Shown: piece by piece, positions 23,780-47,803 of the stretch | Numbering within the stretch: position 1 is the stretch's first letter | Layout of the letters: every line of letters begins with the position of its first letter | Origin: Xanthobacteraceae bacterium | GTDB taxonomy: Bacteria; Pseudomonadota; Alphaproteobacteria; Rhizobiales; Xanthobacteraceae | Length of the DNA stretch: 64,000 nt | Assembly: GCA_019745775.1 (NCBI GenBank) | Contig: JAIESR010000028.1 | Location: forward strand, 1-64,000 | Direction: 5' to 3' | Program-made: the position numbers and the translations under genes | Notes under the pieces: model-generated | What the model was told of the DNA's origin: nothing | The model's database searches: none | What the model saw: only the letters and a program-made list of their open reading frames with translations

Positions 23780-23974
23780 ATGTGCTGGGCCTGCGAGGAA
23801 GAGGCGATGTGGCGGCGCTACCAGCTCGAGGTCGCGGTCGAGCGCGGCGAGATTCCGCCGGGCTTCGAGCCGGCGGACTTCGAGGCCGCCGGATTGCCGG
23901 TGCCGCCCAAACGCGCTGCTGCGAGCGCGGAGGCAGCCAATCCCTTCGCCTGCGATGCTCCGGACACGGCATGA
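23780..23974 (+). CDS. Small Cys-containing protein upstream of gatA
   Basis: A 64-residue product that starts [20 protein letters not shown], with a CxxC at the very N-terminus, an amphipathic acidic helix, and a C-terminal [18 protein letters not shown] segment. The CxxC could bind a metal or form a disulfide. Its stop overlaps the gatA start (ATGA), so it is translationally coupled to gatA. Similar 60-70-residue proteins with the same MCWAC start occur in rhizobial genomes, as I recall; no function is known. Confidence 0.65.
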
Positions 23975-25449
23975 CGGAGCTCACGTCCCTCACGCTCGCC
24001 GAGGCGCGCGACGGATTGCGCAAGCGCGCGTTCTCCGCCGTAGAGCTTGCCGACGCGCATGTCGCGGCAATCGAGCAGGCGCGCGCCCTCAATGCTTATG
24101 TGGTCGAGACGCCCGATGTCGCGCGCGCGATGGCGAAGGACGCCGACACACGCCTGAAGAGCAGCGACGCGCGGCCGCTCGAAGGCATTCCGCTCGGCAT
24201 CAAGGATCTGTTCGCGACCAAGGACGTGCGCACCACCGCATGCTCGCGCATCCTCGACAATTTCGTGCCGACCTACGAGTCGACCGTCACGTCGCAGCTC
24301 TGGCGCGACGGCGCCGTGATGCTCGGCAAGCTCAACAACGACGAGTTCGCGATGGGTTCGTCGAACGAGACCTCGTGCTTCGGGCCGGTGATTAACCCGT
24401 GGCGGCGGAAAGGATCAAATGCGGCGCTGGTGCCCGGTGGTTCCTCGGGCGGCTCGTCCGCCGCGGTCGCCGCGCGTCTTTGCCTGGGCGCGACCGCGAC
24501 CGACACCGGCGGCTCGATCCGCCAGCCGGCGGCGTTCACCGGCACTGTCGGCATCAAGCCGACCTACGGGCGCTGTTCGCGGTGGGGCATCATCGCCTAC
24601 GCCTCGTCGCTCGATCAGGCCGGGCCGATCGCGCGTACCGTGCGCGATACCGCGATCCTGCTACGCTCGATGGCGGGGCACGATCCGAAGGATTCAACCT
24701 CGGTCGATCGCGCGGTGCCGGATTACGAAGCCGCGCTCGGCAGGCCGGTGAAGGGCCTGACCATCGGCATCCCGAAGGAATATCGCGTGCCCGGCATGGC
24801 GGCCGAGATCGGCACGCTGTGGGAGCAGGGCGTCGCCTGGCTGAAGGCGGCGGGCGCCGAAATTGTCGAGGTGTCGCTGCCGCACACTAAATACGCGCTG
24901 CCGGCCTACTACATCGTGGCGCCGGCAGAGGCGTCGTCGAACCTCGCGCGCTACGACGGCGTGCGCTACGGGCTGCGCCAGCCGGGGCGCGACGTCATCG
25001 GCATGTACGAGAAGACGCGCGCCGATGGATTTGGCGCGGAGGTGCGCCGTCGCATCATGATCGGCACCTACGTGCTCTCGGCCGGCTACTACGACGCCTA
25101 CTACCTGCAGGCGCAGAAGGTGCGCACGCTGATCAAGCGCGATTTCGACGACTGCTTTGCCAAGGGCGTCGACGCGATCCTGACGCCCACGACGCCGTCG
25201 GACGCCTTCGGCCTCGGCGAGAAGGCCGGCGCCGACCCGATCGAGATGTATCTGAACGACGTGTTCACGGTGACGGTGAACATGGCCGGGCTGCCCGGCC
25301 TTTCGATCCCGGCCGGACTGTCATCCGACGGCCTGCCGCTCGGGCTCCAGCTCATCGGCCGGCCGTTCGACGAGGAGACGCTGTTCTCGCTCGGCGCGGT
25401 GATCGAGCAGGCGGCGGGAAGCTTCATGCCGGAACGGTGGTGGTATTAG
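23971..25449 (+). CDS. gatA: Asp-tRNA(Asn)/Glu-tRNA(Gln) amidotransferase subunit GatA
   Basis: GatA is the glutaminase subunit that supplies ammonia to the GatB active site. The 492-residue product carries the amidase signature with its Ser-cisSer-Lys triad: the lysine of [11 protein letters not shown], the cis-serine in [14 protein letters not shown] and the nucleophilic serine in [12 protein letters not shown]. The [17 protein letters not shown] and LDQAGP segments are typical of bacterial GatA. The start at ATG 23971 overlaps the stop of the small upstream gene. It is co-directional with gatC, while gatB lies far downstream beyond an accessory block. Confidence 0.95.
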
Positions 25450-25495
25450 ACAGTAACTATCAGAAGTGTCAGATAGTAACTATTGGAGCCCGATC

Positions 25496-25911
25496 ATGGG
25501 CAAATACGAGCCCCTGAGCGATTTCCTCCGTCAGCAGGCCGCTGATGAAGTTTCGCTGAGCTTTGAGCAAATCGAGCAGATCATCGGCAACGCGCTGCCG
25601 GCAAGCGCGCACGAGCATCGCGCCTGGTGGAGTAACAATTCGACTAACAGTGTGATGACGCGAGCTTGGATCGACGCCGGTTTTCGCAGCGAACAGGTCG
25701 ATATGAACGCCCGTAAGCTGGTGTTTCGTCGCATCCGCAAGCAGCAATCAACGAATCAACGCGGCTTGCCGAATACCTCCAGCGCGACCGCGCATGCCGA
25801 CCATCCGATTATTGGTTGTATGAAGGGAACGCTACGAATCGCACCGGGCGTCGACCTCACCGACCGGCGGAGCCAGAGTGGGGACAGCTTGCTTGGGGTA
25901 GTCGAAAATAG
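25496..25911 (+). pseudogene. Frameshifted antitoxin with N-terminal DUF7662-like domain
   Basis: The ATG at 25496 opens a DUF7662-like domain (YEPLSDFLRQQ, EQIIGNALPASAHEHRAWW, MTRAWIDAGF, RKLVFRRI; about residues 1-83). The same frame continues into a segment like a toxin-binding antitoxin tail (HPIIGCMKGTLRIAPGVDLT). One base appears to be missing near 25863: the next frame restores PAEPEWGQLAWGSRK and a stop at 25909-25911, two bases before the PIN toxin ATG. Without the frameshift the product would be about 139 residues. Uncorrected, the frame reads on to 26125 as nonsense. The call as an antitoxin rests on the tail sequence and on spacing to the toxin. Confidence 0.6.
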
Positions 25912-25913
25912 CG

Positions 25914-26325
25914 ATGCCGTTGCTACTGGATACGTGTGCGGTTATCTGGCTGGCGAGCGGCGAGTCGATAAACGACGAAAGTCGGTTAGCATTGCGCGCG
26001 GCGCGACAAGCAAACGATTCGATATACATATCGCCGATCACAGCACTCGAGATTGGCCTCTTGGTTGCTCGTGGTCGATTGAGCCTCATGATATCGCCAC
26101 AACGTTGGTTCGACCGTTTACTTGACCGCTCGGGAGCGCAACTTTCCGACATGTCCGCTGATCTTCTGATGGCCTCAAGCTTTCTCCCGGGAGCACCGCC
26201 GCGCGATCCCCGCTGATCGGATCATTGTCGCCACCGCGCGAGAATTCGGCCATGTCATCGTCACGCGAGATCGGGAATTGTTGAACTACGCGGAACAAGG
26301 CCACGTTCAATCGCTCACCTGTTGA
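25914..26325 (+). pseudogene. Frameshifted PIN-domain (VapC-like) toxin
   Basis: The gene starts MPLLLDTCAVIWLASGES, the first acidic PIN motif, and continues with SPITALEIGLLVARGR (second acidic residue). The frame ends early at 26216 after GAPPRDPR. One extra C in the run near 26208-26211 explains it: removing it restores DPADRIIVATAREFGHVIVTRDRELL and a stop at 26323-26325, giving about 136 residues with the third and fourth acidic residues. The gene belongs to the Sll0205-like PIN group. As written it lacks part of the active site and should be inactive. Confidence 0.75.
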
Positions 26326-26344
26326 GCTTGGCTGAGGCGCTACC

Positions 26345-26642
26345 ATGACCCTCGCCGAGTTCGAGCGCGGCCTCGCCAAGCGGACACCGCCGCCGGACTG
26401 GTCACCGGCGCTCGCCGGCCTGTGGTGGGCCGGCAAGGACAAGTGGGACACCGCGCATGCACGCGTCATGGACGAGTCGGGCAAGGGATTGCGCGCAGGT
26501 GCACGCATACCTCCCCCGCCTTGAGAAAGACGAAGCGAACGCCCGCTACTGGTACCGGCGAGCGGGCGTGGCGCCGGAAACAGGTGCACGCGAGGCCGAA
26601 TGGGCCGCAATTGCCCGCGATCTGCTCGATAAATCGCGTTAA
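26345..26642 (+). pseudogene. Frameshifted small conserved protein
   Basis: From the ATG at 26345 the frame reads MTLAEFERGLAKRTPP, then WSPALAGLWWAGKDKWDTAHARV, then breaks. One extra G in AAGGGATT near 26480 explains it; the next frame continues QVHAYLPRLEKDEANARYWYRRAG and EAEWAAIARDLLDKSR to a stop at 26640-26642. The restored product, about 98 residues, matches a family of small cytoplasmic proteins with a LWW...W..AH..... HAYLHRKEGD..NA.YWYRRAG pattern that I know only as hypothetical. It may be intact in the living organism if the extra base is a sequencing error. Confidence 0.7.
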
Positions 26643-26723
26643 CCATAAGTTCGCCGCGAAGATTAATTGACCATCCTGCAAGCGCCCGCTGATAAGGTGG
26701 GAGAGGAAGGGGTGTTTGGGTCC

Positions 26724-28109
26724 ATGCGTGCGTGGGGGGTTCTGGCGATCATCGGCGTTGCCGCGCTTGGCGGATGCACCAGCGTTTACAATCTCCCGCA
26801 CAACCAGCCGGTGACGGGCTCCGTTCAGGCCTTGCCGCTCGGCGGCGAAGTGCCGCTCCATTCCGATGACGTGATGATAAGCCTCGCCTTCTCCGGCGGC
26901 GGCACCCGCGCGGCCGCGTTCTCGTTCGGCGTGCTGAAGGAGCTCGAGGCGACGCGCATTCGCGACCGCGGTAAGAACGTGTCGCTGCTCGACCGCGTGG
27001 ACTTCGTCTCGGGCGTGTCCGGTGGATCGGTGCTTGCGGCCTACTACGGCCTGCGCAAACGCGAAGCGCTATCCGATTTCCGCGAGCGCTTCCTGCTGCG
27101 CAATGCGGAGGAATCGCTCAACACCCGTGTCTCGATCGCCAATCTCGGCCGTGCGATTGGCGGCGGTTTGAATGACGACACGCGCTTCCCGCGCTGGCTC
27201 GACGACAATCTGTTCGGCGGGGCGACCTTCCGCGACTTCCCCGGTAACCAGCGTCCGCGCATCTGGATTAACGCGTCCGACATCTTCAACCGCACGCCGT
27301 TCGTGTTCGGCAACGTCGCCTTCGACGCCATGTGCAGCGACCTGATGAGCTATCCGATCTCGGAGGCGGTCGCAGCCTCGGCGGCGGTTCCGGTGGTGTT
27401 CGCGCCGATCGTGCTCGAAACCTTCCCCGGCCGCTGCCAGACCCGGTTGCCGGACTGGATCGCGCGGTCGCGGGCAAATCGCAACGCGCAGCCGCTGTTG
27501 CGAGACTTCGCGCAGGCGATCGAGAGCTACCACACCGGTTCTGTACGCTACGTCAAGCTGCTGGACGGCGGGTTGGTCGACAATTTCGGCCTGTCGGGGT
27601 TCACCATTGCGCTGCTTTCGGCGACGCGTCCCTACGAGCCGCTGACGCCGCAACAGGCCACGCGCATCCGGCGGGTGATGTTCTTGATCGTGGATTCCGG
27701 CCGCGGACCGTCGGGAGACTGGTCGCAGCAGCTTCCGGGACCGACCGGTGTCGACCTGGTGATGGCGACCGCCGATACCGCGACCGAAGCCAGCACGCGC
27801 GCGAGCTATGCCGCATTCGTCGCGACCATGAACGAGTGGGTCGGCAAGGTACGTCGTTGGCGCTGTGGCCTGTCGGCGGCCGAGCGGCAGCGGCTGGGCG
27901 CCGGCGGTGAAGGCTGGCGCTGCAACGACATCAACGTATATGTGGAACGCGTCGGCTTCGACCAGTTCGACCGCACGCGCGCCGAAGTGCTCAATGCGAT
28001 CCCGACCCGCTTCCAGCTGCCGCAGCAATCGGTCGACCTCTTGATCGAAGCGGGCGGCGAAGCGGTCCGCAACAACTCGATCTACCAGGCGTTCAAGCGC
28101 GGGCTGTGA
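26724..28109 (+). CDS. Patatin-like phospholipase lipoprotein
   Basis: A 461-residue lipoprotein: the N-terminus MRAWGVLAIIGVAALGGC has a lipobox (LGGC) for lipid attachment. The patatin domain has the oxyanion glycine loop AFSGGGTRAAAFSFG, the nucleophile elbow SGVSGGSVLAAYYG (GxSxG) and the catalytic aspartate in VKLLDGGLVDNFGLSG. It should hydrolyse phospholipids or other acyl esters from the outer-membrane or periplasmic side. Substrate and purpose are unknown. The ATG at 26724 is preferred as it starts the signal peptide; open sequence reaches back to 26667. It is convergent with the TctC cluster. Confidence 0.88.
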   Translation: MRAWGVLAIIGVAALGGCTSVYNLPHNQPVTGSVQALPLGGEVPLHSDDVMISLAFSGGGTRAAAFSFGVLKELEATRIRDRGKNVSLLDRVDFVSGVSGGSVLAAYYGLRKREALSDFRERFLLRNAEESLNTRVSIANLGRAIGGGLNDDTRFPRWLDDNLFGGATFRDFPGNQRPRIWINASDIFNRTPFVFGNVAFDAMCSDLMSYPISEAVAASAAVPVVFAPIVLETFPGRCQTRLPDWIARSRANRNAQPLLRDFAQAIESYHTGSVRYVKLLDGGLVDNFGLSGFTIALLSATRPYEPLTPQQATRIRRVMFLIVDSGRGPSGDWSQQLPGPTGVDLVMATADTATEASTRASYAAFVATMNEWVGKVRRWRCGLSAAERQRLGAGGEGWRCNDINVYVERVGFDQFDRTRAEVLNAIPTRFQLPQQSVDLLIEAGGEAVRNNSIYQAFKRGL

Positions 28110-28181
28110 CGGCCGGCATCTCAGGCTTGACCGCCACGTCGGTCATGCTGGTCGAGGGATAGATCGAGCAGGTTTTGCCAA

Positions 28182-29285
28182 CTATCGGCCAATCACCTGG
28201 CGCGCGCGGGCGATGATGTTCGGCGGATAGTTCGCGAACTCGACAAGCATCTTCTCGACGGTTCCGCCGGTCGCGGGATTTATTTCGAGATTTTGCCGCT
28301 GAGCAGCTTCCACGAGCTCGGGATCCTTCATCGCCGCGTCGAAACCTGCCCGCAGCGCCGCGAGACGCTCGGCCGTCATGCCCGAAGGCGCGATGATCGG
28401 ACGGGCCAGCAGCGTCTGATTGAAATGAAGTGCGAGAACGCTGCGATCCTCGTCCGTCTTCGCGAAGTCGTAGACGCTGGGTACCGGACCGAATTTGTCG
28501 GACCGTTGCGGACCCATTTGGATGAAGAGCTTGAGGCGGCCCGATTTCACATCGTCCAGCAAGGTCGTCATGATGGTGGATACGAAGAGCGAGCAGCTTG
28601 CGGCGACCTCGCCGCGCTGCATGGCAAGGTTAGTCTCCTTCGTGCCCGAGAATCCGGGAATAAGCTGGATCTTCGCCCCGAACAGGTTTTTCAGAACCAA
28701 CGGATGCAGATGGCTGGTGGCGCCGGCGCCGGCCGTGCCGAATGTCGTCTCGCGTGTCAGCATGTCCTGGAAGGTCTTCGGGTTTTCCGGCCGGTTCCAG
28801 ACACCGCAGAACGAAACGTCCTGGTCCATCGAACCGACCCATCCGAACTTGGCCGCCTCGAAATTGGCCTGGTCGTTGCCGAACAGGGCATCCATCGCGG
28901 CCGAGGCGGCGATGGCCCCGAGGTCGCTCCCGTCCTTTGGCGCCACGGAGTAAATATAGTTGGCTACTCTTAGCGAACCGGCGCCCGGCATATTGCGTGC
29001 GACGACGGCGGGATTGCCCGGAAGGTGCTTGCCCAGGTACCGGGCCAACACGCGGGCATACGCGTCATAGCCGCCGCCGGGACCAAAACCGACGTTGATC
29101 TTGATGGTCATGCCTTGGAATGTCACGGCGCCGTCGGCCGACTTGGCGTCACGATCGGCGATCGTCGACAGCAGGGCCACGAAAAGCGGCAGCCAGAACG
29201 GGCACACGCGAGGCCGCCAGCGCGCAGCCAGCCCCGAGCGCTGAAAGCGGTTCGGCCCGGCAGCGGATCGTCGGACGTTTGGCAT
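28182..29285 (-). CDS. TctC/Bug-like periplasmic binding protein (distant member)
   Basis: A 367-residue putative solute-binding protein. It has a hydrophobic export segment after a basic N-terminus (LPLFVALLSTIAD) and core motifs of the tripartite tricarboxylate receptor family: INVGFGPGGGYDAYARVLARYLGKHLPGNPAVVARNMPGAGSL and YIYSVAPKDGSDLGAIA. It differs from the four tighter paralogues to its right and is probably a separate subfamily. It is the last gene of a leftward cluster. The true start could be a little downstream of 29285. The substrate is unknown; these proteins bind carboxylated compounds. Confidence 0.8.
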   Translation of the reverse strand: MPNVRRSAAGPNRFQRSGLAARWRPRVCPFWLPLFVALLSTIADRDAKSADGAVTFQGMTIKINVGFGPGGGYDAYARVLARYLGKHLPGNPAVVARNMPGAGSLRVANYIYSVAPKDGSDLGAIAASAAMDALFGNDQANFEAAKFGWVGSMDQDVSFCGVWNRPENPKTFQDMLTRETTFGTAGAGATSHLHPLVLKNLFGAKIQLIPGFSGTKETNLAMQRGEVAASCSLFVSTIMTTLLDDVKSGRLKLFIQMGPQRSDKFGPVPSVYDFAKTDEDRSVLALHFNQTLLARPIIAPSGMTAERLAALRAGFDAAMKDPELVEAAQRQNLEINPATGGTVEKMLVEFANYPPNIIARARQVIGR

Positions 29286-29332
29286 GAGATCCTCTCCCGC
29301 CAGGCGACGGCTGGCAAACGAGCAGATACCGA

Positions 29333-30214
29333 CTACACCGGCTTTTCGCCCAGGACCGTGACCCGGCGAAGCAGCCGACGTTCCGAAGCGTCAAAATCCG
29401 TGCGCGCGTGCAGCAGGCAGCGGTTGTCCCAGATCACCAAATCCCCCGGCGTCCACTTGTGCGCGTAGACATATTCGGGGCGTTCCTGATGGATGAAGAG
29501 CTGGTGAAGAAGCTCTTCGCTCTCATCGCGCGGCATGCCTTCGATGAAGCCGGTCATCAGGCGGTTCACGTAGAGCGCCTTGCGCCCCGTCACAGGGTGC
29601 GTGCGCACGACCGGATGGGACGCATGCGGCACGCCCTCGCGGATATCGAAGGTGCCGCCGCGTGTGTCCGCGTGGTTGTAATCGTAGACGTTCATCGCCC
29701 GCCTGCCGTCGATCCTGCGCCGCAGCGCCTCCGGCAGCGTCTCGTAGGCGTAATAGGCGTTCGCGAAGCAGGTATCGCCGCCCCTGCTTGGAATCTCCAT
29801 GCCGTAGAGCATCGTCGCCGAGCAAGGTTTTTCCTGGTGACACTGGTCGGTATGGAAGTGCATCTCGCCGTCCGGATGCGCGCCGATCAGCTTGCCGTCC
29901 TCGCGGATATTCGAGATCAGCATGATCGCCGGGTTCTTCTTGTTGTGATGTGTGCGCGGGTTGGCGGATTTGTTGAGCGGTCCGAAGCGCTCCGCGAAGG
30001 CCACCATCTGGTCTTCGTCCAGAGTCTGTCCTGGAAAGACGACGACGAGGTATTGGAACCAGGCGTCGAGAATGTCCTTGAACACCCCATCGCTGAGCGG
30101 CCGAGCGAGATCGACGCCGGTGATGCGAGCGCCGACAACCGGGGAGGCGGGGTGAACCGTGAGACCATGAGGAGTTTGGTACTCACGCTTCCAGTCTGGC
30201 GCCGTGACGTTCAT
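29333..30214 (-). CDS. TauD/TfdA family Fe(II)/2-oxoglutarate dioxygenase
   Basis: A 293-residue cytosolic dioxygenase that oxidises a substrate with O2, Fe(II) and 2-oxoglutarate. The iron triad is visible as MHFHTDQCH (HxD) and RCLLHARTDF (distal His). The N-terminal motif HPASPVVGARITGVDLARPL and RPEYVYAHKWTPGDLVIWDNR are typical of TauD/TfdA. The substrate might be a sulfonate, an aryloxyacid or another carboxylate. It sits inside a run of TctC-type binding proteins, which suggests it degrades a compound taken up by one of them. Confidence 0.9.
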   Translation of the reverse strand: MNVTAPDWKREYQTPHGLTVHPASPVVGARITGVDLARPLSDGVFKDILDAWFQYLVVVFPGQTLDEDQMVAFAERFGPLNKSANPRTHHNKKNPAIMLISNIREDGKLIGAHPDGEMHFHTDQCHQEKPCSATMLYGMEIPSRGGDTCFANAYYAYETLPEALRRRIDGRRAMNVYDYNHADTRGGTFDIREGVPHASHPVVRTHPVTGRKALYVNRLMTGFIEGMPRDESEELLHQLFIHQERPEYVYAHKWTPGDLVIWDNRCLLHARTDFDASERRLLRRVTVLGEKPV

Positions 30215-30331
30215 CGATCGCTCTCAGTTGGAGAGATAAGAGCAAGCAATGCAAATTGGAAAACGAGTTGTGCACCTTGTCAAGTGAAGGTGCCGTCAGG
30301 GCAGCTGCCACAACGAAGCAGGGCTCGGCCG

Positions 30332-31312
30332 TCAATCCGTGCCGGTGATGCCGGCTTCCTTGATAACCGGGCCCCATTTGTCCATTTCGTTCTTGATATA
30401 GGCGCCGAGTTCGGCCGGCGTCGAGCCGCGCACCACGACGCCGAGGCCTTCGAGCCGCTGCTTGATCTTGGGGTCGTTGATCGCCGTGATGGTGTCGGCG
30501 TGCAGCTTGCGGATGATCTCGGGCGGGGTCTTCGCGGGGGCCAGGAGCGCGTACCACGACGATACGTCGAAGCCGGGCACGCCTTCCTCTGCGATCGGCG
30601 CCAGCTCGGGCGCCGCCGGCGTGCGCTTGGCGGTGGTCACCGCGAGGCCGCGCAGCTTGCGGCTTTGGATCAGCGGCAGCACGGCGCCGATGTTGTTGAA
30701 CATCACGTCGACGCGCCCCGGCAGCAGGTCATTGAGCGCGGGGCCGGCACCGCGATAGGGCACGTGCAGCATCTCGACCTTGGCGAGCCGCTTGAACAGC
30801 TCGCCGGAGAGATGCACCGAGGTGCCGTGTCCCGACGACGCGAAGCTGATCTTGCCCTTGTTGGCATTGGCATGGTCGATGAATTCCCTCACCGAGCGCG
30901 CCGGGGAGGAGATCGGCACCGCCATGACGTTCGGGTACTCGCAGATCAGCGTGATCGGTGCGAGGTCGGCGATGGGATCGTAGGGCAGCGATGGGAACAG
31001 GAACTTGTTCACGGCGAGCGGCATCGAGTGCAGCATGATGGTGTAGCCGTCGGGGTCCGACCGCACCACCTGCTCGGTGCCGATATTGGTGGCGCCGCCG
31101 CCGCGGTTCTCGACGACGAGCTGCTGGCCCCACATGTCCGACAGCTTGGCTGAGACGACGCGCGCGATGGCATCGGTGCCGCCACCCGGTGGGAACGGCA
31201 CCACCAGCCGCACGAAGCGGTTCGGATAGGCCTGGGCCTGCGCGCGGCCGATCACCGCGGGCGCCACAAGGGCAGCGGCGGATGCCGAGATCAGCTTGCG
31301 GCGATCGATCAT
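30332..31312 (-). CDS. TctC/Bug periplasmic binding protein (1)
   Basis: A 326-residue periplasmic binding protein of the tripartite tricarboxylate transporter receptor family. A twin-arginine-like or Sec leader (MIDRRKLISASAAALVAPAVIGRAQA) precedes the mature start [19 protein letters not shown]. The loop VVENRGGGATNIGTEQV and the later [18 protein letters not shown] and VPYRGAGPALNDLLPGRVDVMFN mark the ligand site. These proteins bind carboxylates such as citrate or glutarate; the compound is not known here. The next gene in transcription order is the dioxygenase. Confidence 0.9.
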   Translation of the reverse strand: MIDRRKLISASAAALVAPAVIGRAQAQAYPNRFVRLVVPFPPGGGTDAIARVVSAKLSDMWGQQLVVENRGGGATNIGTEQVVRSDPDGYTIMLHSMPLAVNKFLFPSLPYDPIADLAPITLICEYPNVMAVPISSPARSVREFIDHANANKGKISFASSGHGTSVHLSGELFKRLAKVEMLHVPYRGAGPALNDLLPGRVDVMFNNIGAVLPLIQSRKLRGLAVTTAKRTPAAPELAPIAEEGVPGFDVSSWYALLAPAKTPPEIIRKLHADTITAINDPKIKQRLEGLGVVVRGSTPAELGAYIKNEMDKWGPVIKEAGITGTD

Positions 31313-31327
31313 GGCAGCTCCACTCCT

Positions 31328-32296
31328 TCAGTTGACCTTGATGCCGGCCGCCTTGATCACCGCGGCCCATTTGTCGATTTCGACCCTGAGCATGCCGGCG
31401 AGCTCCTGCGGGCTCGAGGGCGCGGGCACGTAACCGATCAGCTCGGCCTTGGCCTTGACCGCCGGGTCGGTGAGCGCGGCGCGCGCTGCGGTGTTCATCG
31501 CCCTGATGATTTCGGGCGGCGTGGCCGCCGCGACGAACATCGCCTGCCACGACATCACCTCGTAGCCGGGGACCGCCTCGGCGATCGGCGGCAGGTCGGG
31601 TGCGGCGGGATCGAGGGCGAGGCTGGTGACGCCCAGTCCGCGGATCTGTCCCGCGCGCACGTTCTCGAGTAGCGAGCCGCTCGCGATGTAGACGTCGACG
31701 CGCCCCGGAATGAGATCGTTGAGCACGGGGCCGGCGCCGCGATACGGCACATGGATCATGTTGAGGCCAGCCATCGTCTTGAACAGCTCGATGGCGAGAT
31801 GCGGTGCGCTGCCGGTGCCGGGCGACGCCATCGTCAGCTTGCCGGGGTTGGCTTTGGCATAGGCGATGAATTCCTGCACTGTCCGGGCGGGCGAGGAATT
31901 CGGCACGAACATGTAATACGGGAAGGTGAAGAGGTTCGCGACCGGCGCAAGGTCGGCGACCGGATCGTAGCTGAGGGTCCGCGTGAGGCTCGGCGCAACC
32001 GCCAGCGAGGACGTGGCGTAGAGGATCGTGTGGCCGTCGGGCGGCGATCGCGCGACCAGCTCGGCCGCGATGTTGGTGCCGCCGCCCGGCCGGTTCTCAA
32101 TGACGACCTGCTGGTTCCAGATTTTCGACAGCGGCTCGCTCATGACGCGGGCGGCGACGTCGGTGGGTCCGCCGGGCGCCAGCGGCACGATCAGCCGGAC
32201 GAAGCGGTTCGGAAAAGTTTGCGCGTAGGCGCGCAGAATGATCGACGGTGTGAGCACCGCAACGGAGGCTGCCAGTAGTCGCCGGCGGTCGATCAT
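31328..32296 (-). CDS. TctC/Bug periplasmic binding protein (2)
   Basis: A 322-residue paralogue of the preceding protein with the same leader layout (MIDRRRLLAASVAVLTPSIILRAYAQ) and core motifs FPNRFVRLIVPLAPGGPTD, IENRPGGGTNIAAELVA and VPYRGAGPVLNDLIPGRVD. Its start overlaps the stop of the frameshifted ModA-like gene by four bases (ATGA), showing they were one operon. It is separated from the next binding protein by about 15 bases. Confidence 0.9.
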   Translation of the reverse strand: MIDRRRLLAASVAVLTPSIILRAYAQTFPNRFVRLIVPLAPGGPTDVAARVMSEPLSKIWNQQVVIENRPGGGTNIAAELVARSPPDGHTILYATSSLAVAPSLTRTLSYDPVADLAPVANLFTFPYYMFVPNSSPARTVQEFIAYAKANPGKLTMASPGTGSAPHLAIELFKTMAGLNMIHVPYRGAGPVLNDLIPGRVDVYIASGSLLENVRAGQIRGLGVTSLALDPAAPDLPPIAEAVPGYEVMSWQAMFVAAATPPEIIRAMNTAARAALTDPAVKAKAELIGYVPAPSSPQELAGMLRVEIDKWAAVIKAAGIKVN

Positions 32297-33056
32297 GGCG
32301 CGCCTTGCTCCATCCCGGTCTTCTTGATGTAGGGCAGTGCCGCCGGCGAAGCGATGAACCTGATCAGCTCGCGTGCGGCGTCCGCCTGCGTCGCGCCGGT
32401 GTGAATGCCGCCGGCAAACACGCTGACGGTGTCCATCTCCTTCGGCACCGGACCGACATACTGGATGCCCGGGAACAGCAGGAGCTCGCTGACCTGCTGG
32501 AAGCCGATATGACGTCGCCGCGCGCCAGGATCGAACCGACGGGCGTGCCGGGCGGGGTCTGCGTGATCTTGGCCGCGACCTGATCCCAGATGCCCCACTT
32601 CTTGAAGAGGCTTTCCAGGAACACGCCGCTCGGACCGGACGAATAGCCGATGCCCTTGGCCGCGAGCAGGAGTCGCTTCACGGCATCGGCGGTGCTGATA
32701 TCGGGTTTCGGCACGCCCTTTGGGACGGCGATGGCGATGCCGGAGCGCACCAGGTCGACGCGGCTCGATCCGACGATCTTGCCTTCCTTGATCATCGCCT
32801 CCATCGCCGGCGTCACCAGGATCGCCATGTCGAAGGTCTCGCCGGCGCGCAGCTTCTTGAGGATATCATTGGTGCCGTTCCAGGTGGTGTTGAGCTTGTG
32901 TCCGCTGACGCGCTCGAACTCCGGCGCGAACGCCAGATAGGCCTCCTTGATCGCCTGTGAAGAGATGACCTTGATTTCCGCCGAACCTGCCATTTGCGAA
33001 CTCCAAAAGGTGCCGCTCAGCACGGCGGCCAGGATGGTAGTCAATCGCATACGCAT
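32293..33056 (-). pseudogene. Frameshifted ModA-like substrate-binding protein
   Basis: The gene starts at 33056 with an export leader and the type II binding fold AEIKVISSQAIKEAYLAFAPEFERVSGHKLNTTWNGTND. The frame breaks near 32510 after LARGDV; the neighbouring frame then gives DIGFQQVSELLLFPGIQYVGPVPKEM and ends TGMEQGAP at 32293. A single deleted base (GACGTC-GATATC reduced to GACGTCATATC) accounts for it. Restored length is about 253 residues, the normal size for ABC-type molybdate-like or organic-acid binding proteins. As written the C-terminal lobe is lost. Confidence 0.75.
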
Positions 33057-33095
33057 GAGTTTTTCTCTCGTTTGTTTGCTTCCTGGCTCACCCCT

Positions 33096-34076
33096 TCATT
33101 CCGTGACCTTGATGTTGGCGGCTTTGATGACCGGGCCCCATTTCGCCGCATCCTCTTTGAGGTGCGCGCCGAGCGCCTCGGGCGTGGAGCCGACGATGAT
33201 AACGCCGAGCTTGTCGAGCCGCGCCTTGACCGCGGGCTCGGCCAGCACCCGCAGCGTGTCGGCGTTCATCTTGCGAATGACGTCCGGCGGCGTCTTCGCG
33301 GGGACGACGAAGGCGAACCACGACGAGGTGTCGTAGCCGGGCACGCCCGCTTCGCCGATCGCGGGCACGTCCGGCGCCGCCTCCTGCCGCTTTGCGGTCG
33401 AAACCCCGAGTGCCCGCAACTGGCCGGCCGCCACCATCGGCAGGCCCGACGCCATCACCGCGAAGGTCATGTCGACGCGTCCCGCGACGAGATCCGTGAT
33501 GGCCGGTGCCGCGCCACGATAGGGCACGTGGGTGATGTCGACCTTGGCCATGTACTTGAACAGCTCGGCGCTCATGTGCGGCGACGAGCCGTGGCCTGGC
33601 GACGCGTAGGTGAGTTTCCCGGGATTTGCCTTTGCCGCCGCCAGGATGTCGCCTACCGACCTGAATTTTGAATCCTTCGGCACCGCCAGAAGATTGGGGA
33701 ACGTGCAGATCAGCGTAACCGGTGCGAAGTCCGCGACCGGGTCGTAGTTGATCGATGGAAACAGATACTGGTTGACCGTCAGTCCGCCGGCGGTGATCAG
33801 CATCGTGTAGCCGTCGGGCGCCGCGCGCGCGACGAACTCGATGCCGATATTGGCGCCGGCGCCTGGCTTGTTCTCGACCACGACCTGCTGGCCCCAGATT
33901 TCCGACAGCCGGGCGCCGATGATCCGTCCGACGCCGTCAATGCCGCCGCCGGGCGTGAACGGTACCACCAGGCGGACGATGCGATTGGGCCAAGCTTGCG
34001 CCAATGCGGGACTGCCGATGGCGGTCAGCAAGGTGGAAGCGGTGCCCAGTTTGGTGAAACGGCGGCGATCGAGCAT
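33096..34076 (-). CDS. TctC/Bug periplasmic binding protein (3)
   Basis: A 326-residue TctC/Bug family protein. The leader (MLDRRRFTKLGTASTLLTAIGSPALAQA) is followed by [38 protein letters not shown] and VPYRGAAPAITDLVAGRVDMTF. It is in the same leftward cluster. The exact ligand is unknown. Its neighbours on both sides are also binding proteins, with no TctA/TctB permease between them. Confidence 0.9.
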   Translation of the reverse strand: MLDRRRFTKLGTASTLLTAIGSPALAQAWPNRIVRLVVPFTPGGGIDGVGRIIGARLSEIWGQQVVVENKPGAGANIGIEFVARAAPDGYTMLITAGGLTVNQYLFPSINYDPVADFAPVTLICTFPNLLAVPKDSKFRSVGDILAAAKANPGKLTYASPGHGSSPHMSAELFKYMAKVDITHVPYRGAAPAITDLVAGRVDMTFAVMASGLPMVAAGQLRALGVSTAKRQEAAPDVPAIGEAGVPGYDTSSWFAFVVPAKTPPDVIRKMNADTLRVLAEPAVKARLDKLGVIIVGSTPEALGAHLKEDAAKWGPVIKAANIKVTE

Positions 34077-34106
34077 GTCTCGGTCCCGGTCTTTCGTTCT
34101 TGAATG

Positions 34107-35093
34107 TCAATCTTGAGTCTTGATGCCGGCGGCCTTGATGATCGGGCCCCATTGCTCGGTTTCGGCCTTCAGCCGTGCGCCGAGCTCAGCCGGCGTCGAC
34201 GCGACGACTTCGACGCCGACCTGCTCGAGCCGCGTCTTGATGGCGGGCTCGGCGAGGATGGCGGCGGTATCGGCGTGCATCTTCTTGACCACGTCGGCGG
34301 GCGTCCTGATCGGCACGAACAGCGCGTACCACGAGGTGACGTCGAAGCCGGGCAGGCCGGACTCCGCGACGGTCGGAAACTCCGGCGCGGTCGGCGACCG
34401 CTTCGCGGTGCTGACCGCGAGCCCGCGCACCTGGCCCGCGCGCACCTGCTGGAGCACGCCCGCGGCGGTGTTGAACATCATGTCGACGCGCCCCGGGATG
34501 ACGTCGCTGAGCGCCGGCGCCACGCCGCGATAGGGGACGTGGGTCATCTCGAAGCCGGCCATGCGCTTGAACAGCTCGCCGGACAGATGCGGGGAGGTGC
34601 CGACGCCCGATGACGCGAAGGTGAGCTTGCCGGAGTTGGCCTTGCCGTGGGCAATGAGCTCCTTGACGGACTTTACAGGCGACGAATTGGGCACCACCAG
34701 CAGATTGGGGAACTGGCAGATCATGATCACGGGCGCGAAATCGCTGATCGAGTCGTAGCTCAGCGACCTGAACAGGAAGCGGTTGACCGCCATCGGCAGC
34801 GCCGCGATCAGGATGGTGTAGCCGTCGGGTTCGGAGCGCGCGACCTGCTCGGCGCCGAAATTGCCGCCGGCACCGGGCTTGTTCTCGACGATCACCTGCT
34901 GGGCCCAGACTTCCGACAGCCGGTTGCTGAGGATGCGCGCCACCACGTCGGTGCCGCCGCCCGGCGGGAATGGCGCGACCAGCTTCACGATGCGGTTGGG
35001 CCAAGCCTGCTGCGCCCGCGCGATGCAGGGCGAAACGGCCGGAGCGAGCGCCGACGCGGCCGCAAGCCCCACCAGATGGCGGCGGGTGATCAT
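34107..35093 (-). CDS. TctC/Bug periplasmic binding protein (4)
   Basis: A 328-residue member of the same family and the first gene of the leftward cluster. The ATG at 35093 gives a leader ([20 protein letters not shown]) and is much better than the upstream in-frame ATG at 35264, which would add 57 residues of poor sequence overlapping the gatB promoter. Core motifs are [37 protein letters not shown] and [23 protein letters not shown]. gatB starts divergently 143 bases away. Confidence 0.9.
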
Positions 35094-35236
35094 GGCGTGT
35101 CTCCCTGCTGCGGCGTGCGCTTGCTGCGCAATGTGGTGCCGTCTGGTTGCGGCAAGCCTATAGCGGGCCGGAAGGTGCCACAACGGGAAGAAAGCGGTGG
35201 CTATTGCGTGAATTGACGCGGCAGGACGAGTTTGCG

Positions 35237-36718
35237 ATGACCTTCGCCATGAGCGAACCCGCACGCAAATCCAAACTGTTGAAGGGTGCCACCGGCGACT
35301 GGGAGGTCGTGATCGGCCTCGAGGTCCATGCCCAGGTTACCTCCGAGGCCAAGCTGTTCTCCGGCGCTTCGACCGCGTTCGGCGGCGAGCCGAATTCGCA
35401 GGTGTCGCTGGTCGATGCCGCGATGCCTGGCATGCTGCCGGTGATCAACGAGGAGTGCATCCGCCAGGCGGTGCGCACCGGGCTTGGCCTCAACGCCAAG
35501 ATCAACCTGAGATCGGTGTTCGACCGGAAGAACTATTTCTATCCCGACCTGCCGCAGGGTTACCAGATCAGCCAGTACAAGTCGCCGATCGTGGGCGAGG
35601 GCGAGATCGCGATCGACATGCCCGATGGCGAGACCGTCAAGGTCGGGATCGAGCGCGTCCATCTCGAGCAGGATGCCGGCAAGCTGCTGCACGACCAGCA
35701 GCCGAACATGTCGCTCGTCGACCTCAACCGCTCCGGCGTCGCGCTCATGGAGATCGTGTCGAAACCCGACCTGCGCTCGGCCGACGAGGCCAAGGCCTAT
35801 GTGTCGAAGCTGCGCACCATCCTGCGCTATCTCGGCACCTGCGATGGCGACATGGAGAAGGGCAACCTGCGCGCCGACGTGAACGTCTCGGTTCGGCGAC
35901 CCGGCGACCCGTTCGGCACCCGCTGCGAGATCAAGAACGTGAACTCGATCCGCTTCATCGGCCAGGCGGTCGAGTATGAAGCGCGCCGCCAGGTCGACCT
36001 GATCGAGGACGGCGGCACGGTCGAGCAGGAGACGCGGCTGTTCGACCCCAACAAAGGCGAGACCCGGCCGATGCGCTCCAAGGAAGAGGCGCACGACTAC
36101 CGCTACTTCCCCGACCCTGACCTCCTGCCGCTTGAAATGCCACAGGCGCTGGTCGACGACCTGAAGGCGCACCTGCCGGAATTGCCGGATCAGAAGAAAG
36201 CGCGCTTCATCCGCGACTACGCGCTTACCGCCTACGACGCCAATGTGCTCACCGCCGAGCGCGCGGCCGCCGACTATTTCGAGGATATGGCGCGCGGCCG
36301 CGATGCCAAGGCGGCGGCCAATTGGGTGACCAACGAGCTTGCCGGCCGCTTGAACAAGGAAGGCAAGGACATCCTGGCGTCGCCGATCTCGTCGTCGCAG
36401 CTCGGCGCGATCCTCGATCTGATCGCGGCCGGCACGATCTCCGGCAAGATCGCCAAGGATCTGTTCGAGATCGTCTGGAGCGAGGGCGGTGATCCGCGCC
36501 AGATCGTCAAAGATCGCGGCATGGAGCAGGTCACCGACCTCTCCGCGATCGAAAAAGTGGTCGATGACATCGTCGCCGCGAACCCCGACAAGGTGGAACA
36601 GGCGAAGAACAACCCCAAGCTCGCCGGCTGGTTCGTCGGACAGGTGATGAAAGCGTCCGGCGGCAAGGCCAACCCGCAGGCGGTGAGCGATCTGCTCAAG
36701 CGCAAGCTCGGCCTCTGA
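35237..36718 (+). CDS. gatB: Asp-tRNA(Asn)/Glu-tRNA(Gln) amidotransferase subunit GatB
   Basis: GatB holds the kinase-transamidase site and the tRNA-binding tail of GatCAB. The 493-residue product has the GatB opening [24 protein letters not shown], the catalytic region with [39 protein letters not shown] and the C-terminal YqeY-like tail ([35 protein letters not shown]). The start at ATG 35237 gives the standard N-terminus. It is separated from gatC/gatA by about 9.8 kb of accessory genes. Confidence 0.95.
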
Positions 36719-39596: not shown

Positions 39597-41759
39597 TCAG
39601 GCGTGTGCTTTGGCGTTCGCCAACACCCGGACTGCGTCCGCGATTTCCGCGAATACCGGCGCCCAGTCGCCCTCCCTGCGTTGCCGGAATAGCCGCATGG
39701 TCGGGTAGAAGGGACTGTCCTGGCGGTCGAGCTGCCAGCGCCATTCGGGGACCCGGCGCAGCGCGACGAAGGTCGGACGGCCAAGCGCGCCGGCCAGATG
39801 GGCGATCATTGAATCCGAGGTCACCACCAGATCCAGGTTTGCGAGCAACGCGGCCGTTTCGAGCGGCGCTTCGGGTCCCTTGTCGGACTCATCGATAAGG
39901 CGCTCGATGCGATCGCCGAACGGGACTTGCTCGATCTGGTCGGGGCCGGGCTGCTTCTGGAGTGAAATGAGGCGCACGCCGGGAAGCGTGGCGAGAACCT
40001 CGAACGCGCGCAGCGGAATCGAGCGGCCGGCGTCGATCCAATTCTGATTGTTGCCTTGCCATGCGATTCCGACCCGGAAGCCGTCTTCACCGAGCCGGGT
40101 TTTCCAGGCGGCGATCTTCTCCGGACTGGTCGATAGATAGGGAACGTCGAAAGCGAGCTGATCGGCGCGGAGCTTCAGGACATGCGGCAGGCTCATCAGT
40201 GGCAGCCAATGCTGCGGCGCAAGCTGTTCCGCGTCCTGGGCATTGTCGATCACCGTTTCGACGCCGGCAAGGGTGCGCAGAAGCGGCGCCAGCGCCGGCA
40301 GCGTCAGCAGCTGGACGCGTTGTCCTTCACGGATCAGGCGAGCTGCAAGTCCCGCGAACTGAATCGAATCGCCGATACCCTGTTCGGTCTCGAGCAGGAT
40401 CGGCTCCCGTGTCGGCTCCCCGTTCCAACGCGGGAATGTCTGCAGCTCTTGCACCTGGCCCTGTGACGCAAATCGCCGATCGATGTCGGAACCGGGCTTG
40501 AGGAAACGTCGGTGCAGGAGGCTGAAGCCTGGCACCTCCAGCCGCCGTTCGTAGCGGCGAAACCCTTCTTCCCAGCGACCGTGCAGCAGATCGACGAGCC
40601 CGGCGACGAACTGCACATGCGGGTTGTCCGCCTCGATGCGGCAGCCGCGATCCAATGCCTCGAATGCCTCGCCGTAGCGGCCGAGCGCATGCAGCGCCAG
40701 GCCGCGATCGACATGGATAGTCCCGCGATCCGGGTCGATCGATAGCGCGTGATCGAGCGCGGCGACGGCGTCGACGGGGCGGTTGCACTTGATCAGCATG
40801 GCGCCCCGGAACGCGTGTGCCTCGGCGAGACCGGGTTCGAGCGTGAGTGCCCGCTCGATGCTGGTCAGAGCTTCATCGAGCCTCGAAAGGTCGTGCAGCA
40901 GTCGCGCGCGCAACTGCCAGGCCGCGAACCAATGCGGGCTCGCGGCGATGACGCGCTCGCAGTTGGCGAGCGCCGCCTCGGGGTCGCCGGCCTTATGCAG
41001 GATCGAAGCGCGCTCGAGCAGGCCTTGTGGCCATGTCGGATGGACCGCAAGCGCACGGTCGATGCAGGCGAGGGCGTCACCGAATTGCCCGCGATCAGCC
41101 AGGAGAATCGCGCGCGCGAGCAACGCGGGCAGGAGGCCCGGTTGCGCGGCGATCGCGCGATCGCAGCTCGCCAGCGCGTCGTCCCAGCGGCCGAGAACGT
41201 GCAGCGCCTTGCTTCGGTTGAGCCACGCTTCCGCCAGGTCCGGCACCAGGGCGATCGCCCTGTCGTAGCTGTCGAGTGCCTCCTCGTGGCGGCCGAGCGT
41301 CTGTAACAGCGAGCCGCGGTTGACGAGTGCCGCGACCAGGTCCGGCGCGAGCGCAAGCGCGCGCTCATAAGCGGCAAGCGCTTCTTCCGGGCGTCGCAGA
41401 TCCTGCAGGATGTCGCCGCGATTGGCATGCGCCTCGGCGAAGCTTTGATCGCTTGCGATCGCATCGTTGCTGCTGGCGAGAGCATCTTCGATGCGGCCGG
41501 TTTCTCGCAGCGCCATGCTCAAAGTATTGTGGGCGGCCGCATGCTCGGGCGCGAGCGACACGGCCCTGCGCAGATGTTTGACGGCATCCTTGAACTCGCG
41601 CAGGTGACACTGCGCGAGTCCGGAAAGGTACAAGGCATCGACGTTCTTGGGCTCACGACGGATGATCTCCGCGTAGCGATCGCGCGCGTCGGCAAACGCG
41701 CCTTGCTGGTGGCGGTCGATTGCTTCCTGCAGCAGGAACGACGTGTCAGGTGCCGCCAT
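39597..41759 (-). CDS. TPR protein with GT9-like glycosyltransferase domain
   Basis: A 720-residue protein. The first ~450 residues are at least eleven tetratricopeptide repeats of the form EALASYDRAIALAPDLAEAW. The C-terminal ~270 residues contain ETEQGIGDSIQFAGLAARLI, VQLLTLPALAPLL and the terminal motif DLVVTSDSMIAHLAGALGRPTFVALRRVPEWRW, typical of the heptosyltransferase-like domain (GT9 fold) in TPR proteins. It could glycosylate a protein or surface glycan. The ATG at 41759 begins the repeats; the earlier ATG at 41945 would overlap tRNA-proximal sequence. No nucleotide-sugar specificity can be inferred. Confidence 0.82.
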   Translation of the reverse strand: MAAPDTSFLLQEAIDRHQQGAFADARDRYAEIIRREPKNVDALYLSGLAQCHLREFKDAVKHLRRAVSLAPEHAAAHNTLSMALRETGRIEDALASSNDAIASDQSFAEAHANRGDILQDLRRPEEALAAYERALALAPDLVAALVNRGSLLQTLGRHEEALDSYDRAIALVPDLAEAWLNRSKALHVLGRWDDALASCDRAIAAQPGLLPALLARAILLADRGQFGDALACIDRALAVHPTWPQGLLERASILHKAGDPEAALANCERVIAASPHWFAAWQLRARLLHDLSRLDEALTSIERALTLEPGLAEAHAFRGAMLIKCNRPVDAVAALDHALSIDPDRGTIHVDRGLALHALGRYGEAFEALDRGCRIEADNPHVQFVAGLVDLLHGRWEEGFRRYERRLEVPGFSLLHRRFLKPGSDIDRRFASQGQVQELQTFPRWNGEPTREPILLETEQGIGDSIQFAGLAARLIREGQRVQLLTLPALAPLLRTLAGVETVIDNAQDAEQLAPQHWLPLMSLPHVLKLRADQLAFDVPYLSTSPEKIAAWKTRLGEDGFRVGIAWQGNNQNWIDAGRSIPLRAFEVLATLPGVRLISLQKQPGPDQIEQVPFGDRIERLIDESDKGPEAPLETAALLANLDLVVTSDSMIAHLAGALGRPTFVALRRVPEWRWQLDRQDSPFYPTMRLFRQRREGDWAPVFAEIADAVRVLANAKAHA

Positions 41760-41960
41760 GGGACTGTTTACCGGAACCGCCAAGTTGCTGATCGACGCGC
41801 GCCCTAGCGTTGCAACATCGTATATCTTCGTCGAAAGCTGAAGCTGCTCGCGCGAATACTGCTCGGGTCTTGAGCCGGCCTTCTTCGCTGAAGCTCCGAA
41901 GGGCATCCTGCTTCGCGCCCAAGGTTGTAATCCCGCGAAGTGCATGAACGCAAAGCAGGA

Positions 41961-45402: not shown

Positions 45403-47796
45403 ATGTCCCTGACGATCCAAATGGCAATGGACCTGCATCGTCAAGGCCGGCTGAGCGAAGCGGAAGTCCACTATCGCAGCCTGTTGGCTAAATCGCCGAG
45501 CCAGTTCGATTTGCTTCACTTGTTCGGAATTTTGAAGCTGCAGCAGGGCAACCTCGCGGAAGCCATGGCCTCGATTTCCAGGGCGGTCGAAATCAATCCG
45601 TCGGCGCTCGATGCGCGATCGAACCTGATCGCCGCGCTGCTCGGTCTTGGGCGGCCCGCCGACGCGCTCGATCATTGCGACAAGGCGTTGGCGATCGGCC
45701 CGGCCGACGTGGGGATGCACCACAATCGCGGCGTAGCATTGATGCAACTTGCCCGCCACGAGGAGGCGCGCGCCGCCTTCGATCGGGTTCTTGCGGCAAA
45801 GCCCGATCACGTCAATGCGCTGTTCAACCGTGCCGGCGCGCTCGCCGGCCTGCGGCGATATGAAGAAGCAATCGCCGACTACGATCGCCTCCTGGGTTTC
45901 GCCCCGCACCATCCCGAGGCGCTGACCAATCGCGGAACGGTGTTTGCGCAGCTCGGACGCGATGGCGATGCGCTCGAAAGTTTCGACCGCGCCCTCAGCC
46001 TGGCGCCGGAACACGCGGACGCGCTCACCAATCGCGGCATCGCGTTGCGCAGGCTCATGCGACCTCAGGAGGCCCTTGCCAGCCTCAACCAGGCGCTTGC
46101 TGCCAGTCCCGACCACGTCGGCGCGCAAATCAATCGCGGCAATGTCCTGCTCGACCTGCACCGTGCCGAAGATGCGCTGGCGAGCTTCAACCGCGCGCTT
46201 GCCCGTTCGCCGAAGGACCCTAACGCGCTGACAAACAAGGCATTTTCACTCCTTTCGTTGGGGCGATTCGAGGCGGCCTTGCAGAGTTGTGACGAAGCGC
46301 TGGCTGCGGATGCGCAGTACGTCAACGCGGCATTGGTACGAGGACACACGCTCGCCAAGCTCGATCGTCCGGGTGAGGCGGCGATGAGCTACGAACGCGT
46401 GCTGGCGATCGATCCGGGCAACATCTATGCGTTGGGCGCCTCTTTGATCGCGCAGCGGGCCGCGTGCCAATGGGAGCGCGTCGACCAATCCCTTGCGGCG
46501 ATCGAGCAGAGCGTCCATGCAGGCGTGGCCGTGGTGCCGCCGTTCAATCTGCTTGGCCTGCCGATTGCGCCGGCGATTCAATTGCAGTGCGCCAAGAATT
46601 TCACCGCCCAGAGACTCCCGGCGGAGCCGGCGCCGTTCCCAAGCCGCCAACGCGCGCCGTCCGGCAAGATCAAGCTCGCCTACGTGTCGGGGGACTTCCG
46701 GCAACATCCGGTCGCCTATCTGGTGAGCGAGCTCTTGGAACGTCACGATCGCTCTCGCTTCGAGGTGATCGGTATTTCCTATGGCCCGGACGACGCCAGC
46801 GACGAGCGCCGGCGCCTGGTGGCGGCGTTCGACCAGTTCCACGACGTCAGCACGCGCACCGAGCGCGAAACCGCGGCGCTGATCCACGATTTGCAGGTCG
46901 ATATCGCCATCGATCTCGGCGGCCATACGGAAAACGCGCGCCCTGGAATCCTGCGCGACCGGCCGGCCTCCGTGCAGGTCAGCTACCTCGGCTATACCGG
47001 CACGATGGGCGCCGACTTCATCGACTACATCGTCGCGGATAAAGTCGCGCTACCCCCTGATCTCGCGCCCTATTTCACGGAGCAGATCGTCCGCCTGCCG
47101 GATTGCTTTCTGGTCAACGACGCGACCAAGGCGATCTCGGCCGGCACGCCGTCACGCGCCGAGGCCGGGCTGCCTCAGCACGGATTTGTCTTCTGCTGCT
47201 TCAACAACAGCTACAAGATATCGGCGGGGGTGTTCTCGGTCTGGATGCGGTTGCTGGCGGCCGTCGAAGGCAGTGTGCTGTGGCTTTCGCGGATGAACGC
47301 AGACGCGGCCGAGGTCCTTCGCTCGACCGCTGCGGCCGCGGGCGTCGACCCCGGCCGGATCGTATTCGCGCCGCGTGTTCCGGCGATGGCCGACCATCTG
47401 GCGCGGCTGCGCCTGGCTGATCTCTTCGTCGATACCACCGACTACAACGCCCACACGACGGCGAGCGATGCATTGTGGGCCGGGGTGCCGATGGTGACCT
47501 GCGCGGGCGCGACATTCCCGGGCCGGGTTGCCGCCAGTCTTCTCCATGGTATTGGGGTCGCGGAACTGGTGACGACGTCGATCGCCGACTACGAGGCCCT
47601 CGCTCTGAAGCTCGCGCGTGATCCATCGCTGCTGCAGTCGATCCGCCAGAAGGTGCAGGCGAACCGGCTGACCCATCCATTGTTCGACACCGATCGTTTC
47701 CGTCGCCATCTTGAGGCGGCCTATACGACCATGGTGGATATCGCACGGCAGGGCGAGAAACCGCGCAGCTTCGGCGTGGATCCGATTAGCGCCTGA
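45403..47796 (+). CDS. TPR protein with OGT-like (GT41) domain, copy 1
   Basis: A 797-residue protein. About ten TPR units fill residues 1-380 (EALASLNQALAASPDHVGAQ type), then comes the OGT/SPINDLY catalytic region (GT41 family). Motifs are IKLAYVSGDFRQHPVAYLVSEL, DIAIDLGGHTENARPGIL, DYIVADKVALPP and DCFLVNDATKAI, then FCCFNNSYKIS and TTDYNAHTTASDALWAGVPMVT, the sugar-nucleotide binding part. It should transfer a sugar to proteins, in the cytoplasm. Its nearest relative is the next gene, which is almost contiguous (7 bases from stop to start). Confidence 0.88.
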   Translation: MSLTIQMAMDLHRQGRLSEAEVHYRSLLAKSPSQFDLLHLFGILKLQQGNLAEAMASISRAVEINPSALDARSNLIAALLGLGRPADALDHCDKALAIGPADVGMHHNRGVALMQLARHEEARAAFDRVLAAKPDHVNALFNRAGALAGLRRYEEAIADYDRLLGFAPHHPEALTNRGTVFAQLGRDGDALESFDRALSLAPEHADALTNRGIALRRLMRPQEALASLNQALAASPDHVGAQINRGNVLLDLHRAEDALASFNRALARSPKDPNALTNKAFSLLSLGRFEAALQSCDEALAADAQYVNAALVRGHTLAKLDRPGEAAMSYERVLAIDPGNIYALGASLIAQRAACQWERVDQSLAAIEQSVHAGVAVVPPFNLLGLPIAPAIQLQCAKNFTAQRLPAEPAPFPSRQRAPSGKIKLAYVSGDFRQHPVAYLVSELLERHDRSRFEVIGISYGPDDASDERRRLVAAFDQFHDVSTRTERETAALIHDLQVDIAIDLGGHTENARPGILRDRPASVQVSYLGYTGTMGADFIDYIVADKVALPPDLAPYFTEQIVRLPDCFLVNDATKAISAGTPSRAEAGLPQHGFVFCCFNNSYKISAGVFSVWMRLLAAVEGSVLWLSRMNADAAEVLRSTAAAAGVDPGRIVFAPRVPAMADHLARLRLADLFVDTTDYNAHTTASDALWAGVPMVTCAGATFPGRVAASLLHGIGVAELVTTSIADYEALALKLARDPSLLQSIRQKVQANRLTHPLFDTDRFRRHLEAAYTTMVDIARQGEKPRSFGVDPISA

Positions 47797-47803
47797 GGTC
47801 CGC

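Follow-up and report, generated by a model that had tools for sequence, protein, structure and literature searches.

Why should a bacterium keep five solute receptors of the TctC/Bug family side by side, next to a dioxygenase and with no TctA permease gene by them? The question is raised by a stretch of 64,000 nucleotides from a Xanthobacteraceae bacterium (GenBank:GCA_019745775.1, contig JAIESR010000028.1, positions 1 to 64,000; the whole stretch is called the window below), the minus strand of which carries, at 28182-35093, five such receptors (R1-R5) together with a ModA-like gene and one for a TauD/TfdA dioxygenase. A preliminary description had recognised five receptors and a TauD/TfdA gene in one leftward cluster, and both the open reading frames (ORFs) and the Pfam matches agree with it. 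We consider it probable that R1-R4 are a duplicated array located between gatA and gatB, each copy probably having a different carboxylate, and that they are served by TctAB permeases encoded elsewhere. Descent, location, purifying selection on R1, R2 and R4, pocket patterns and the lack of TctA on the contig were computed. The seven genes, which are co-directional with intergenic spacing of 15-117 bp, are as follows.

34107..35093, minus strand: R1, TctC/Bug receptor (Pfam), heading the array and divergent from gatB
33096..34076, minus strand: R2, TctC/Bug receptor, with same-gap orthologues in genomes G002, G005 and G007
32364..33056, minus strand: ModA-like (SBP_bac_11) binding protein (Pfam), frameshifted
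31328..32296, minus strand: R3, TctC/Bug receptor, with its nearest relatives of other genomes outside the gatA-gatB gap
30332..31312, minus strand: R4, TctC/Bug receptor, with a same-gap orthologue in G007 and G003
29333..30214, minus strand: TauD/TfdA-family Fe(II)/2-oxoglutarate dioxygenase (Pfam)
28182..29285, minus strand: R5, divergent TctC/Bug receptor (Pfam, predicted Bug fold), tentatively of a second expanded subfamily

R1-R4 descend from one ancestral gene by duplication. R1 and R3 were used as queries against their own genome, each search scoring the best 150 of 460-480 candidates; within these, R1 matched R4 (59% identity), R2 (58%) and R3 (50%) best, the others reaching at most 46%, and R3 matched R4 (54%), R1 (50%) and R2 (50%) best, the next being at 46%. 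In a careful tree of 60 rows, R1-R4 and their relatives were split from 14 paralogues of the same genome with branch support of 100/99, and a quick tree with 56 other receptor rows of this genome (a 57th row so labelled is R3) agreed on the R1-R4 grouping; out of the several hundred receptors of the genome, the trees sampled between 14 and 56. The search results and the clade indicate that chance does not explain the row of four close copies. The outcome that the preliminary description had named as pointing to a chance assembly, closest relatives in unrelated loci, was looked for and is not what was found for R1-R4. By the definition of tandem duplication in Rosa et al. (2018), neighbours being closest to each other, R1-R4 are tandem duplicates and R5 is not. 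The expansion by duplication that had been proposed for the receptors therefore stands for R1-R4, which form one clade and of which R1 and R3 match the other three best, whereas it fails for R5, whose best matches lie elsewhere. R1, R2 and R4 are an older array, in which R3 either stayed or which it joined. The R3 relatives showed no common neighbourhood among the five loci viewed (L347-L351), and G198 holds two R3-type genes adjoining each other.

The cluster occupies the gap between gatA and gatB (25449-35237), which is a variable slot in the genus. The genes on its borders and a further gene inside it are the following.

23782..25449, plus strand: gatA (amidase), bordering the gap on the left; the listed ORF probably begins upstream of the true start
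26667..28109, plus strand: patatin-like protein, also found in the gatA-gatB gap of other genera
35237..36718, plus strand: gatB, right border of the gap; the Pfam scan was taken from 35147

Five gaps of the same genus were readable and held 0 to 3 receptors each; the contig of G004 begins inside the gap and G006 yielded no gatB, and both stand outside this count.

G001: no receptor
G002: R2 and the ModA-like gene
G003: three receptors, one split over two frames
G005: R2 and the ModA-like gene
G007: R1, R2, the ModA-like gene and R4

In the G003 gap (L106, 1922-2855), a receptor lies in two pieces, the first matching as R1-like and the second as R4-like, and the copy may be broken or a hybrid. 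On another contig, from a metagenome-assembled genome (MAG), gatB is accompanied by genes of the R1-like, ModA-like and patatin-like kinds (L223), and a MAG labelled Rhodoplanes piscinae (L218) has R1, R4 and R2 together, with neither gatA nor gatB on the DNA examined. Among 14 stretches examined in other genera, none of the 12 containing both gatA and gatB had a receptor between them.

To compare the ligand pockets, R1-R4 were aligned through the terephthalate receptor TBP to the positions of TphC, for which the residues surrounding terephthalate have been named and P86/Q150 described as narrowing the pocket for aromatic diacids (PMC8556258). TBP has the same residue as TphC at 12 of the 15 named positions, with a constant offset in numbering, and differs at positions 30, 31 and 154. 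In the order R1/R2/R3/R4, the residues are A/A/T/S at 86, S/P/P/S at 150 and S/S/A/S at 155; the TphC signature (P86, Q150, T155) is missing from all four, and these residues lend no support to a terephthalate-like ligand. Orthologue pairs (R1, R2 and R4 with G007, R2 with G002, and R3 with its closest relative in G003) have 13-15 of the 15 pocket residues in common at 63-84% identity elsewhere, and pairs among R1-R4 have 6-11 of 15 at 51-59% elsewhere. A further comparison took the positions that are fixed in each of the R2, R3 and R4 groups, leaving aside the small R1 group (3 rows), L299 (on the R3 side of the tree) and doubled L309 rows. At 85% fixation, the groups differed at 8/12 pocket versus 18/85 other positions (p 0.002), at 75% at 8/12 versus 26/109 (p 0.004), and at 100% at 6/9 versus 8/40 (p 0.011); when the pocket list was extended to 20 positions, p was 0.010, 0.014 and 0.076 at 85%, 75% and 100%, respectively. 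The ratio of nonsynonymous to synonymous substitution rates (dN/dS) was about 0.17-0.28 for R1, R2 and R4 against their same-gap counterparts in G007 or G002, indicating purifying selection; the values were 0.13 for gatB and 0.11 for the patatin-like gene in the same gap. Pockets nearly fixed between orthologues and divergent among most copies fit different, stably kept ligands and speak against copies kept for dosage. Judging from these alignments, most of the R1-R4 copies probably bind different carboxylates.

The missing permease was set against the genome as a whole. The genome gave at least 150 TctC matches, all above the cut-off, and 14 TctA matches, all on contigs other than the window's contig C141; TctB was not searched for, and the array, with no TctA on C141, is not a complete tctCBA operon. 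The lack of TctA by the cluster that the preliminary description had pointed out is thus borne out. The top-scoring TctA match of the genome (L031, G000:C142:70400-71662; G000 is the window's own genome) has an in-frame TGA. Receptors were counted in 20-kb stretches, 20 in all, which were spaced on a grid across the larger contigs and chosen blind to known receptors. The 400 kb contained 22 receptor ORFs (about 55 per Mb), some of which are fragments, and scaling to the 6.3-Mb genome gives an estimate of about 350 receptors (Poisson range 217-524) versus 14 TctA. In G108, a genome of the same family (8,193,889 bp), 29 receptor ORFs in 400 kb scale to about 590 (398-853). For Rhodoplanes sp. 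Z2-YC6860, 434 TctC receptors have been reported, nine of them in full tripartite tricarboxylate transporter (TTT) operons, and orphan receptors are the published norm (PMC5994714); the sampling method is roughly right, provided that G108 is this strain. Since orphan receptors are normal in the genome, the missing permease needs no special explanation, and with receptors so frequent the presence of one is as such unremarkable. The earlier suggestion that the permeases are encoded elsewhere is tenable in principle, given the 14 TctA matches and this published norm.

These data can be put together as follows. A single ancestral receptor gene gave rise to R1-R4 by duplication, and the gap between gatA and gatB now houses the array. 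In the periplasm, each of the copies probably binds a small carboxylate of its own. R1-R4 may be exported there; a twin-arginine stretch was spotted by eye in their N-termini. The array may also be co-transcribed. The loaded receptors would then pass the carboxylate on to one of the TctAB permeases, which are few and located elsewhere in the genome; both the ligand class and the delivery to shared TctAB are what we infer. R5 and the dioxygenase are probably later neighbours, and action of the dioxygenase on a ligand of R4 or R5 is only a possibility. Several points weigh against this explanation. The pocket map is a sequence alignment to one terephthalate receptor, and with the wider list and strict fixation the pocket excess is not significant. 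R1 and R4 have 11 of 15 pocket residues in common, compared with 58% identity elsewhere, and may bind alike. R1 is paired with the G007 copy partly because of where the two lie, tree support for this being mixed (96/67), and R3, with its relatives in other genomes located outside the gatA-gatB gap, may have joined the array. A sensing role of the receptors, taken up below, also counts here, although we regard it as improbable.

The preliminary description had gone further in proposing that the whole cluster is one catabolic unit, in which related carboxylated aromatics or sulfonates are imported and the TauD/TfdA enzyme begins their breakdown. The co-directional genes with their narrow spacing agree with this proposal, as does the identity of the enzyme. 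The dioxygenase has a PF02668 match of 231 bits, and its closest solved relative by sequence is RdpA, the (R)-phenoxypropionate dioxygenase (PDB 6D1O), with which its HTD motif (HxD) and distal H align. These residues we take to bind iron, and the enzyme would act on an anionic substrate. It fell below the NCBIfam equivalog cut-offs, e.g., that for taurine dioxygenase. Against the proposal, neither TauD nor R5 was found in any of the five readable gaps of the genus, including those keeping R1, R2 or R4. The best other TauD among the matches listed for 296 genomes of the family was 63% identical, and with the absence from the gaps this led us to reject a long-standing membership of TauD in the array. 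With TauD and R5 in the gap only in the window's genome, and with P86/Q150 of the TphC terephthalate pocket missing from R1-R4, a single uptake-and-breakdown locus is weakly supported.

The neighbourhoods of other TauD-type genes were also compared. A receptor lay within 300 bp of 12/31 TauD-type genes outside the window (5/12 in G000, 5/10 in G007 and 2/9 in G002) versus 29/270 size-matched control genes (p 1.8e-4; by genome, p 0.003, 0.028 and 0.24); the 31 genes are not mutually independent, and the control came from a crude longest-ORF gene caller that sometimes picked antisense ORFs. This excess, which would favour some link, was not significant against enoyl-CoA hydratases, of which 5/30 had a receptor nearby (p 0.086), the 30 loci being roughly the ten best per genome of 63. 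Of the remaining 33 hydratases, at least three (G000:C121:62389, G000:C140:20878 and G007:C34:2234), by coordinates compared by eye, also have a receptor within 300 bp, which counts against a TauD-specific link. Of the per-genome best TauD genes, 5/30, the window's being one of the five, had a receptor in the surrounding 1.5 kb. A strong rule of TauD-receptor pairing was rejected; the safe reading is that receptors tend to adjoin catabolic enzymes generally. Among the papers searched, none joined tripartite tricarboxylate, TauD and substrate-binding protein. The duplication of the receptors is real and the link to the dioxygenase is weak, and we consider one catabolic unit unlikely.

R5 differs from the array beside it and is of another, divergent subfamily of receptors. 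The PF03401 (TctC) matches of R1-R4 were 230-246 bits and that of R5 37.4 bits (cut-off 27). Its best matches, 54% identical, are in G007, in G002 and elsewhere in its own genome, and R5 was accordingly rejected as a duplicate of R1-R4. The R2 group aligns with solved Bug chains by sequence; for R5, no solved structure scored better than 1.6e-06 by sequence. Its predicted structure (predicted local distance difference test, pLDDT, 87) has the Bug fold, with Z scores of 26.8 to Bug27 and 24.2 to BugD, 11 Bug/TctC entries listed at 23-27 and the next entry at 15.6. In the samples, which include L195-L214 and L356-L375, R5-type ORFs made up 12/22 receptor ORFs in G000, 7/15 in G007 and 5/7 in G002 (total 24/44), and 1/29 in G108. 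TBP as the sole tblastn query picked up 3/13 R5-type ORFs of the G000 and G108 samples at a threshold of 1e-4 and 0/13 at 1e-15; receptor censuses at 1e-15 with classical queries may miss many R5-type receptors. Ten of the 14 TctA loci were inspected for receptors lying within about 1.5 kb; a classical receptor was present at 8 of them and one of the R5 type at none. A permease partner shared by the R5-type receptors was likewise rejected, as no family occurred in more than two members when 35 of 46 neighbour proteins were scanned with Pfam. The R5 type is patchily distributed: with at most five candidates scored per genome, an R5 match at 1e-50 was present in at least 15 of the 385 genomes of the taxonomic class (the window's genome being one of the 15), and weak R5 relatives (22 records, all below 60% identity) are on plasmids of Sinorhizobium, Paraburkholderia and others. 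We offer tentatively, as an idea with less than even prospects, that R5 belongs to a second TTT-receptor subfamily, expanded to about 190 copies per genome in the genus (an extrapolation of the 12 ORFs sampled per 400 kb) and working without TctAB through other permeases or sensors.

It could also be asked if the receptors are sensors, acting as periplasmic partners of membrane kinases or chemoreceptors rather than of transporters. A sensory role has been reported for BctDECBA and proposed for the Rhodoplanes orphans, with a receptor near 14/22 histidine kinase genes in Rhodoplanes (PMC5994714), and the lack of TctA on the contig would fit. However, the Pfam scan of the seven cluster genes and of gatA, gatB and the patatin-like gene brought up nothing recognisable as a kinase, chemoreceptor or regulator, and it does not seem likely to us that sensing is the role of the array. 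Finally, a chance assembly of unrelated receptors, favoured by the receptor density of the sampled 400 kb and by the nearest relatives of R5 and R3 being elsewhere, is very improbable for the cluster as a whole and is refuted for R1-R4, two of which (R1 and R3) match the other three best genome-wide and all of which form one clade; for R5 and TauD it may hold.

The ModA-like gene sits within the row of R1-R4 and interrupts the receptors. Its product, ModA-like in the preliminary description, has an SBP_bac_11 match (91 bits). Compared with the copies in G002 and G007, which are open, the gene has a frameshift some 180 codons in; the G005 copy is open too. The original frame stays open to the end past the single frameshift, which indicates either a recent loss (a fresh pseudogene) or an assembly error. 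The frameshifted product matched no NCBIfam model, only the general SBP_bac_11 model. In the MAG labelled Rhodoplanes piscinae, two adjoining ModA-like matches were seen near receptors (L251, 8087-9339). Farther along the window, large ORFs at 39597-41945 and 45403-50314 contain TPR-like repeats as judged by eye.

Among known systems, the array most resembles the expansion in Rhodoplanes sp. Z2-YC6860, with its hundreds of TctC receptors, few permeases, tandem arrays and orphan status. The receptor genes there occur in tandem arrays of 2-5 and one of nine, attributed to lineage-specific duplication (PMC5994714); three members of the nine-gene array have their best match inside it, whereas R1-R4 form one clade. 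The window receptors belong to the same family as the Bordetella Bug receptors Bug27 and BugD and have the same fold, as judged from the R5 model. The terephthalate receptors TphC and TBP (PDB 7NDR/7NDS and 8HK9-8HKB) are also of this family, with pocket loops that can be aligned; TphC differs in its bulky P86 and Q150, in place of which R1-R4 carry the residues given above. The likeness of the dioxygenase to RdpA is one of sequence, within the TauD/TfdA family. No close solved structure was found for the divergent receptors of the R5 type, a class that deserves separate attention. The array is an ordinary and yet well-defined new case of the published receptor expansion, with an enzyme and a fifth, different receptor beside it. 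Four genes of one origin lie together here, their pockets nearly fixed between species and yet unlike in most of the copies, and the array offers a small test case for why bacteria keep hundreds of receptors per handful of permeases.

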